DNA of 64,000 nucleotides from Planobispora longispora (GTDB taxonomy: Bacteria > Actinomycetota > Actinomycetes > Streptosporangiales > Streptosporangiaceae): the NCBI RefSeq assembly GCF_016863135.1, contig NZ_BOOH01000051.1, positions 62,001 through 126,000 on the forward strand. Direction: 5' to 3'. Positions 50,789-52,291 of this stretch are shown piece by piece; position 1 is the first letter of the stretch; the number at the start of each line of letters is the position of its first letter. Made by a program: the position numbers and the translations under genes. The notes beneath the pieces were generated by a model that made no database searches, was not told the origin of the DNA, and worked only from the letters and a program-made list of their open reading frames with translations.

Positions 50789-50944
50789 CTAGATGGGGTA
50801 GCCCCAGGGGCCGGCCTGCTGGACCACACCTTCTGCCGCAGGGGAGGCAGACGAATCAGCGCCAGCGGCCGTAGCATTGCCTGCAACGGCGACTACGGTC
50901 GCGAACAGGACCGCGAGGGCAGAGAAGGCAAGGCGTCGACGCAC
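50789..50944 (-). CDS. Secreted small peptide, candidate pheromone precursor
   Basis: The GTG at 50944 has AGGAG 6 bases upstream and encodes 51 residues. VRRR is followed by a hydrophobic core (LAFSALAVLFATVVAVAG) and an AGA cleavage site near residue 29, leaving about 22 residues that end VVQQAGPWGYPI. The tail is short, hydrophobic and aromatic, as in exported signalling peptides. The frame extends 13 codons upstream without a ribosome site. It is divergent, across 54 bases, from an XRE-TPR regulator. Processing and signalling are inferred. Confidence 0.65.
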   Translation of the reverse strand: MRRRLAFSALAVLFATVVAVAGNATAAGADSSASPAAEGVVQQAGPWGYPI

Positions 50945-50998
50945 GGGAGACTCCTGTCGTAGGTTCTGCTGCTCAACCAACATCTTTCAAGGGGTAAC

Positions 50999-52291
50999 GT
51001 GACTGGTCAAGACTTGGTCGGGCAGCGTATCAAGACCGTGCGCCGTCAGCGCGGCCTTTCCCAGGCGCAGCTCGCCCACCCCGAACTGTCCGACAGTTAC
51101 GTGTCGCTCATCGAGAGCGGCAAGCGCACTCCGACCCCCGCGGTGCTGGAACTTCTCGCCGTCAAACTCGACTGCTCGCTCACCTATTTGCTGAACGGCG
51201 TGACCGCGGAGCAAATGCAGGAGATCGAGCTCGCCCTCGGCTATGCCCGGATGGCCATGGAGAACGGCGAGGTGGCCGAGGCGCGCACCCGATACACCGA
51301 ACTCCTCACGGACAACGGACTCGCGGGCCTGCCGCAGCTCCGTCAGGAGGCCGAGTACGGCCTGGCGATCGCGGCGCAGGCCTGCGGCGACCTCGACGCG
51401 GCGATCGGCCTGCTGAACCGGCTGCGTGAGCGCGACGCGGCCGACATGTCCCCCGAGCGGCACATCGACATCGTGACGGAGCTGTCCATGTGCTACCGCG
51501 AGCGGGGAGACCTCGGGCGGGCGGTGACCGTCGTGGAGGAGATCCTCGGCGGGGCCGTGCGGCCCGTGTGGACCGACGGCCTGATCAGGCTGGGCGCGCA
51601 GCTCCTCGCCGCCTACATCGACCGGGGGGACCTGCTGCGGGCGCAGCAGTTCTCCGACGAGCTCATCGCGGCGGCCGAGACTCTCGGCACGCCGCTGGCC
51701 CTCACCCTGGCGCACTGGGGAGCGGCCATCCTCGCGGTGGAGACCAAGGACGGCGACAAGGCGGTCACCCATGTCCAACGGGCGGTGGCCATCCAGTCGG
51801 AGTACGGCGACCCCCGCCGTTCCAGCCGGCTGCACAACGACTACGCGGCCATCATGCTGCTGGTCCGTCCCACGGAGGCGGCGACCTGGCGCGACACCCT
51901 GGAGCGGGTGAAGGTGGAGCTGGCCGAGAGCGCCAGCACGTCGAGGGACAAGCTGCGCTGCGCGATGAATCTCATCCGCGCCGAGCTCCTGCTCGGTTCT
52001 TCGGAACGGGCCGAGGCGCACATCCAGACGATCAGCGCCCTCCTCGAGGGGATGCCGAACGACCTGCGGGCAGACGCCCATCTGATGGCCGGCCAGGTCC
52101 TCGCCGAGCTCGGCAGGACCGGGGAGGCCGTCGGTGAGCTGACCGAGGCGATCGCACTGCTGGAGCCACTGCCGACCACCCGGTTCACCACCCAGTCCTG
52201 GGTGACCGCCGCGCAGATCCTGGACCGGGTCGACGAGACCGACCGCAGCGTGGAGGCCTACCACCGGGCGCTGGCCTGCGTGGGCCTGTAG
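50999..52291 (+). CDS. XRE helix-turn-helix regulator with TPR domain
   Basis: The 430-residue protein has an N-terminal XRE helix-turn-helix (VGQRIKTVRRQRGLSQAQLA, SDSYVSLIESGKRTPTPAVL, residues about 7-65) and a long alpha-helical TPR array to the end. The layout equals that of peptide-binding RRNPP regulators (PlcR, NprR, Rgg), though TPR-XRE proteins in actinomycetes are mostly uncharacterised. The GTG start lies behind AAGGGG. A gene for a short exported peptide lies back to back with it, making a sender-receiver pair plausible. Confidence 0.85.
   Translation: MTGQDLVGQRIKTVRRQRGLSQAQLAHPELSDSYVSLIESGKRTPTPAVLELLAVKLDCSLTYLLNGVTAEQMQEIELALGYARMAMENGEVAEARTRYTELLTDNGLAGLPQLRQEAEYGLAIAAQACGDLDAAIGLLNRLRERDAADMSPERHIDIVTELSMCYRERGDLGRAVTVVEEILGGAVRPVWTDGLIRLGAQLLAAYIDRGDLLRAQQFSDELIAAAETLGTPLALTLAHWGAAILAVETKDGDKAVTHVQRAVAIQSEYGDPRRSSRLHNDYAAIMLLVRPTEAATWRDTLERVKVELAESASTSRDKLRCAMNLIRAELLLGSSERAEAHIQTISALLEGMPNDLRADAHLMAGQVLAELGRTGEAVGELTEAIALLEPLPTTRFTTQSWVTAAQILDRVDETDRSVEAYHRALACVGL

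Follow-up and report, generated by a model that had tools for sequence, protein, structure and literature searches.

An exported-peptide gene paired with an XRE-TPR regulator gene across Actinomycetota: a candidate RRNPP-type pheromone family

We report that a short gene for a putative exported peptide and the gene of an XRE-TPR regulator stand back to back in a 64,000-nt stretch of Planobispora longispora DNA (contig NZ_BOOH01000051.1, positions 62,001 to 126,000; called the window here), and that this pair, as judged from sequence comparison, is real, conserved and widespread in actinobacteria. Our preferred reading, held at a probability of about three in four, is that of an RRNPP-type peptide-pheromone circuit belonging to a sender-receiver family in Actinomycetota. 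What can be read directly is a Sec-like precursor with a short variable tail, encoded head to head with the XRE-TPR gene; in the window's family most homologues show a spacing of about 45-70 nt, and related forms of the precursor and XRE-TPR pair are found elsewhere in Actinomycetota. The combination of a lineage-specific exported tail with a neighbour resembling a Firmicutes receptor, in many actinobacteria, suggests a widespread peptide language. An earlier note on this DNA had proposed an actinobacterial sender-receiver circuit; the conserved pair and its signal-like tail support that proposal in part, but it was drawn too narrowly, for in place of one circuit we find a family whose tails are of the -CC, W..P and tandem-repeat kinds.

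The divergent gene pair in the window

The predicted precursor starts with MRRR, followed by a hydrophobic core, an A-x-A site (cut between NATAAGA and DSS) and then 22 residues ending in GPWGYPI; export was called from charge and hydropathy and from the A-x-A site, the last by eye. The 51-aa peptide had no match in Pfam or NCBIfam at 0.001. An alternative, longer peptide ORF of 64 aa begins at ATG 50983, but most orthologues have a start codon close to where the GTG lies, at a distance of 45-70 nt from that of the regulator. The regulator itself begins at GTG 50999, which leaves 54 bp between the two divergent start codons. Its Pfam matches comprise HTH_3 (residues 11-64; 1.2e-10) and TPRs from residue 84 to 412, with TPR_2, TPR_12, TPR_14 and TPR_19 above cut-off in the 430-aa protein, and its NCBIfam matches all lie far under the model cut-offs. 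Direct reading of the start codons and of the Pfam matches bears out what had been described from the letters alone, i.e., a short gene with a ribosome site, a signal peptide and a tail of about 22 residues ending in GPWGYPI, separated by 54 bases from a regulator with an XRE domain and a TPR array. The coordinates are collected in Table 1.

Table 1. Features of the peptide-regulator pair, with positions in the window.
Feature	Position	Strand	Basis
Exported peptide precursor gene (predicted), 51 aa, GTG start	50789..50944, stop included	-	Divergent exported ORF likewise placed in most orthologues
Predicted Sec signal peptide, residues 1-29 (MRRR...NATAAGA)	50858..50944	-	Sequence; orthologues with similar n-/h-region
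Predicted released peptide, residues 30-51	50792..50857	-	Deduced from the A-x-A site; variable among orthologues
C-terminal tail GPWGYPI, proposed signal	50792..50812	-	Positional match to the -CC / W..P tails of orthologues; mature end deduced
Ribosome site of the peptide gene, AGGAG	50951..50955	-	GGAG-type in most orthologues
Ribosome site of the regulator, AAGGGG	50989..50994	+	Orthologues similar
XRE-TPR regulator, 430 aa, proposed cytoplasmic receptor	50999..52291	+	Pfam; PlcR/NprR profile match; helical solenoid in a modest-confidence AF2 model
XRE/HTH_3 DNA-binding domain, residues 11-64	51029..51190	+	Pfam; dN/dS 0.02 pooled (residues 1-68)
TPR solenoid, residues 69-430, proposed peptide-binding groove	51203..52288	+	Pfam, model; dN/dS 0.25 pooled
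TTGACC within codons 3-4 of the regulator, proposed -35 of a peptide promoter	51005..51010	-	CAA codon bias; promoter role putative
AAAGAT, possible -10, 17-nt spacing	50982..50987	-	Partly conserved block ACATCTTT on the opposite strand; putative, weak

The start of the regulator gene shows a constraint at the DNA level. CAA serves as its first Gln codon at 84 of the 86 loci with a divergent peptide and at two of the seven loci without one, and the later Gln codons of the regulators number 128 CAA versus 1376 CAG. The hexamer GGTCAA on the regulator strand reads TTGACC on the opposite strand, a -35-like sequence for the peptide gene, and the constraint on CAA fits a putative peptide promoter lying inside the start of the regulator.

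Distribution of the pair and dialects of the tail

A search with the window regulator gave matches in 45 of 60 relatives (E<=0.001, generic XRE matches counted in). When ORFs were scanned at 30 loci, a divergent short exported ORF was present at the best match of all 18 of 18 genomes, the window's included (L002-L019, with regulators 40-100% identical to the window's), and also at L021, L024 and L026; none was found at L020, L022, L023 and L025, nor at the paralogue L032 (the second match in genome G002 of the window's genus; 41% identity). A profile (A1) made from 20 regulators, every one of them with a peptide, matched in 129 of 200 family genomes and 68 of 394 class genomes at 1e-25, and in 22 of 296 phylum genomes at 1e-20. 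Flanks were examined for part of these matches, namely 100 regions hand-picked for spread together with loci returned by searches; this gave 169 loci which, with five repeats, correspond to 164 distinct regulators, and 167 of the loci had sufficient upstream DNA.

At these 167 loci a blind scan, which made no use of the tail sequence and asked for an exported ORF no more than 300 nt away and preceded by a Shine-Dalgarno-like site, detected an opposite-strand exported ORF in 129 cases, with one ending in -CC at 104 loci and with start-to-start distances of 37 to 271 nt, mostly 53-58. As GC-rich DNA is rich in short ORFs, the peptide could in principle be a chance ORF beside an ordinary regulator. 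We consider the probability of this negligible, given that the 129 of 167 compare with 0/21 opposite-strand candidates (1/21 on any strand) at control genes (paralogues sharing about 30-40% identity, plus RamB-like XRE genes), that of 835 mononucleotide-shuffled upstream regions 16 gave a candidate, with both strands considered, and 0 gave a -CC candidate, and that, within 617 kb of DNA flanking 40 loci, 91 candidate exported ORFs were found of which 25 end in -CC, all 25 being located within 600 nt of the regulator match. Two of the control paralogues (L036, L042) have an exported-looking ORF on the same strand about 800 nt upstream, beyond the 300-nt rule. An XRE-TPR paralogue of about 32% identity (G000:C16:96253-97554) is present in many family genomes, and no opposite-strand exported ORF within 300 nt was seen at the control loci that were examined.

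When the 164 distinct loci are sorted by their tails, the classes are 109 CC (a class which permitted up to seven residues past CC, for which the pick favoured CC, and into which one downstream peptide, L258, was entered by hand, the blind count being that of the scan of 167), 18 W..P (hand-written patterns taken from the tails of the window clade), 6 other and 31 without a peptide. Among the six, L207 yields a -CC tail on a relaxed scan, and L027 and L246 have xWP tails. The earlier note had named orthologous regulators lacking an adjacent small exported peptide as a finding that would speak against it; this objection mostly falls away, with a -CC or W..P peptide beside 127 of the 164 homologues (107 of 144 without the 20 alignment seeds), but the 31 have none. 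Eleven of the peptide-less homologues belong to a single 13-row group of the tree, and the GPRVHCC-stop pattern, sought genome-wide as an orphan peptide, was absent from 6/6 genomes (four with an examined peptide-less locus, G382 placed in the group by its match, and G206 included by mistake). These peptide-less regulators, and the existence of peptide-less XRE-TPR paralogues, lend some weight to another explanation, in which the peptide acts as an effector (bacteriocin-like, a morphogen or a surface peptide) whose gene is simply under the control of the XRE-TPR protein, itself a sensor of something else; divergent pairs of a regulator and its target gene are common. We regard this explanation as unlikely, for reasons that emerge from the tails and from the receptor.

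The tails vary in a structured way. In a FastTree phylogeny of the 164 regulators (midpoint root) the CC label needs 13 changes versus 46 when shuffled, and one supported group of 17 W..P rows and four peptide-less paralogues is nested among -CC rows. The window clade has W..P-like tails in place of -CC: GPWGYPI in the window, and GPWNGPA, GPLNNAE (without W), IGWVYPG, SPWQWPI, YGWGWPG, LGWNHPD and others. Related regulators often have tails in common (RADFLCC, xDWCC, YEFAAGCC, FDNGCC, GPRVHCC, PGDFCC). In genus g133 the regulator and a -CC peptide are present in 15 of 15 genomes, yet the tails differ (CECC, SLYCC, RLDCC, SLPCC, RLECC, NQLCC, QGYCC, NHLCC, GSLCC, DNGCC in two, TPLCC, SVWCC, AEPCC, YEGCC).

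Other families show further forms. In family f5 precursors with two to eight tandem G(N/D/I/E)WP copies, such as IGNWPDPM, VGDWPHA and VGIWPNS, are found at 22 of 30 loci and at none of the other eight, a count which includes the query's own locus (L052) and some near-copies. The look of these f5 precursors beside their XRE-TPR genes (L052-L066, L068, L070, L071, L073-L076) is that of pheromone precursors. Tandem copies of a short peptide argue against an effector, and, since such copies are otherwise hard to explain, the short repeat is probably the active product. In family f20 an xWP tail (SIEWP, DIDWP, SIDWP, EIGWP) is seen at 8/30 loci, -CC at 5/30 and neither at 17/30, where L082 is the query's own locus and the -CC of L111 appears only on a wider scan without the Shine-Dalgarno rule; f20 has plasmid relatives in Streptomyces, Kitasatospora and Embleya. 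Beyond the class, short precursors (28-35 aa) are encoded at 13 of 21 loci and show, by eye, an aromatic-Pro tail directly past the hydrophobic segment (FPWGGT, FPWPK, YPWPK, NWPHH, PWPHCC, PWPPCC, PFPGCCG and similar), and no such peptide was found at the other eight, two of which are cut by the contig end. The loci of these three lineages at which no peptide was found count against the pheromone reading, as do the 31 peptide-less homologues. Precursors of about 30 aa whose tails reach only some 5-8 residues past a membrane segment also speak against an effector. Tails containing both W-P and CC (PWPHCC, PWPPCC, WPGMCC in f21, NWPKCC at L241) form a link between the dialects.

In family f27, whose genomes measure 1.6-2.2 Mb, four loci have CC at or close to the end of the tail; these small genomes (L242-L245) retain the pair, and three of the four tails extend past CC (CCLV, CCG, CCDAIPA). 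We consider it slightly better than even that the pair represents an ancient, phylum-wide pheromone family of Actinomycetota, with an ancestral W-P core and C-terminal Cys-Cys from which the -CC-only, W-P-only and tandem-repeat dialects were derived. If so, its reach would run from Streptomyces and allies to genomes as small as 1.6-2.2 Mb. A modified or ring-closed signal, of a kind not known among RRNPP peptides, could be formed through the Cys pair.

Relatives were also found on mobile and distant records. Plasmid searches matched the window's regulator in 14 Streptomyces, one Nonomuraea and one Streptosporangium records, and gave 37 records for L027 and none for L026. On plasmid pADI95-16a of Streptomyces sp. 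ADI95-16 the gene of the annotated hypothetical protein WP_123083198.1, which ends in DIPLCC, follows that of the regulator WP_123083197.1 downstream and shares its strand, with a BTAD regulator nearby; between the XRE-TPR gene and the BTAD regulator (L258, 4536-5043) there are two hypothetical exported peptides, one with the DIPLCC end and one with the end DPREKM. In Nonomuraea gerenzanensis the divergent peptide ends in ...MTGDAGCC. Record NZ_LT559118.1 (L257; 11.85 Mb, 'plasmid I') is chromosome-like in size and synteny and is perhaps mislabelled. Two tandem regulator matches each occur at L173, L178 and L192 (G362, G383, G321), a possible case of receptor duplication and divergence. No relative was found among viral contigs, and a single distant Chloroflexi match (L001) among genome contigs was left out of the analysis.

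Neighbouring genes and divergence of tail and receptor

Homologues of CopC and CopD are encoded downstream of the regulator at 20 of 21 loci (19 family loci and N. gerenzanensis), the one exception being the f21 locus. A terminal Cys pair is able to bind Cu(I). Both facts would suit an extracytoplasmic metal or thiol system with the -CC peptide as a ligand of copper (or of another thiophile) and copC-copD as targets of the regulator. We nevertheless judge this very improbable, as the MetAP and Xdh neighbours are kept as well at most f1 loci, so that the arrangement looks like plain synteny, as the window clade keeps copCD with a tail that has no Cys, and as the tandem W-P peptides lack Cys too. 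Moreover, searches of 20 neighbourhoods beyond the family, 13 with -CC peptides among them, gave no match to CopC, CopD, SARP or the other window neighbours sought (E<=1e-4). A SARP homologue lies beside only seven of the 21 loci, one of them a fragment; the SARP was accordingly rejected as an obligate partner, and the suggestion that the giant SARP next to the pair might be its output found no support. Absence from the outside-family neighbourhoods makes copper and SARP alike unlikely as a general output. No common partner emerged when 10 neighbour ORFs from loci beyond the family were scanned with Pfam, some of these being merely the longest ORFs and maybe in the wrong frame.

The HTH and the TPR part of the regulator differ in how fast they evolve. 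Across 88 f1-type peptide-regulator sets HTH identity stays at 0.97-1.00 where TPR identity spans 0.7-1.0, and over the same span the identity of six tail residues (those before CC where present) falls from 0.67 through 0.33 to 0.23, being 0.23-0.33 at 70-90% TPR identity. Pooled dN/dS over 24 disjoint close pairs was 0.02 for the HTH, 0.25 for the TPR, 0.65 for the signal and 0.82 for the tail. A fast-evolving TPR against an almost fixed HTH points to a ligand, and thus away from a regulator that merely controls an effector gene.

Tail similarity correlates with that of the TPR at 0.48 and with that of the HTH at 0.18 (Mantel permutations <=0.06); when signal similarity is held fixed, the correlation with the TPR is 0.41 for the tail versus 0.39 for the linker, and with the tail hardly above the linker the association may reflect shared descent. 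In a per-column test residues 244, 248 and 284 ranked top for the tail and occupy groove positions of TPR5/TPR6 in a hand-set register. For the groove as a whole, tail-associated columns were not significantly enriched (p=0.27, or 0.13 with CC only), whereas the control with the signal peptide was enriched in the CC-only set (p=0.013) and had a higher r than the tail. The predicted co-variation of the peptide C-terminus with the TPR pocket was therefore not confirmed, the tail doing no better than the linker control and the signal control doing as well or better, and a tail-receptor association that shared descent may explain is a further point on the side of the effector explanation. N241 is found in 116 of 130 -CC receptors versus 7 of 59 W-P receptors, with only four independent pairs to compare it with -CC, of which on average 1.6 went the same way and 0 the opposite. 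W240 was rejected as a marker of peptide sensing, as it is also present in 13 of 16 control paralogues. Three paralogues (L251-L253) that group with the window's clade, and at which no peptide was detected, have R for the common W240 (RA, RA, RV).

Proposed circuit and known signalling systems

RRNPP receptors measure about 250-500 aa and carry TPRs, and most RRNPP subfamilies have an N-terminal XRE HTH; a short propeptide gene with an export signal lies alongside, and the tails diversify between related strains or species. The pair described here shares these features, with export as predicted by hydropathy. Alignment of profiles with hhalign related A1 to the f5 regulators (A2; 2.3e-28 over 396 columns) and to the f20 regulators (A3; 5.3e-31 over 394 columns), from which it follows that three regulator groups with differing tails form one homologous family. 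Against PDB sequences the best HTH-plus-TPR match of A1 was PlcR (6.2e-12; residues 4-189, i.e., the HTH and first TPRs), with NprR at 3e-9 and 6e-9 and with the HTH domains of ComR and SinR also matched; engineered TPR proteins scored above PlcR, up to 3e-16. A2 and A3 matched PlcR or ComR through the HTH only, and the window regulator sequence alone gave only two HTH matches. A single-sequence AF2 model is a helical solenoid (pLDDT 63; below 50 for residues 1-68). In a VIA comparison with structures it gave Z scores of 16.5 for RapI (rmsd 5.7, 239 aligned), 16.3 for RapH (7.5, 271), 16.2 for NprR (9.8, 318) and 15.0 for PlcR (10.0, 237), all below the 20.8 of LGN, which indicates generic TPR similarity; eukaryotic TPR proteins mostly top the Foldseek and VIA lists, and the PHROGs matches are almost exclusively to the HTH. 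The receptor resembles PlcR and NprR in its XRE plus TPR arrangement and by profile, a relation that may or may not reach beyond generic HTH and TPR similarity.

On our preferred reading, a pheromone circuit, the precursor would be exported and cut by signal peptidase and then by further peptidases, and a tail of about 7-10 residues (-CC or W..P) would re-enter the cell through an oligopeptide ABC importer. The window's genome encodes 14 SBP_bac_5 proteins, which makes peptide import possible. Once inside, the tail may bind the TPR groove and alter the hold of the HTH on an operator within the overlapping divergent promoters, and on other targets. The peptide and regulator genes would then form an autoregulated switch, and the differing tails of related species could serve as private channels (pherotypes).

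Firmicutes and their elements are where receptors that sense re-imported peptides in the cytoplasm have been described. RRNPP_detector has been run on genomes of Firmicutes and of viruses, and according to the same paper the signals of actinobacteria are typically small enzyme-made molecules (PMC10075063). Within the covered literature on RRNPP systems and actinobacterial peptide pheromones, available in part and with most subscription papers and preprints outside it, no such family was found. If the pairs do signal, a phylum rich in antibiotic producers would hold many private peptide channels, readable from genomes and testable with synthetic 7-10-mers; these would offer a handle on silent gene clusters and on development, and the origin of RRNPP-type signalling would become a cross-phylum question.

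The adjacency of a propeptide and a TPR receptor is shared with the RRNPP systems NprR-NprX, Rap-Phr, Rgg-SHP and AimR-AimP. With PlcR-PapR of the Bacillus cereus group the likeness is an XRE HTH plus TPR regulator adjoining a short exported precursor. In PapR the C-terminal heptapeptide is the signal. The differences are that PlcR-PapR belongs to another phylum, whereas here the tails are -CC or W..P, the layout is divergent with 54 bp between the genes and some precursors hold tandem copies; in addition, the window regulator has about nine TPRs (in our own register) against fewer in PlcR. The A-factor/ArpA system of Streptomyces differs in that its signal is a small molecule and its receptor of the TetR type. 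It is similar in having, in actinobacteria, a cytoplasmic receptor for an extracellular signal, there a gamma-butyrolactone; besides butyrolactones, the review that describes this also mentions peptides that are cyclic or modified (PMC4748050).
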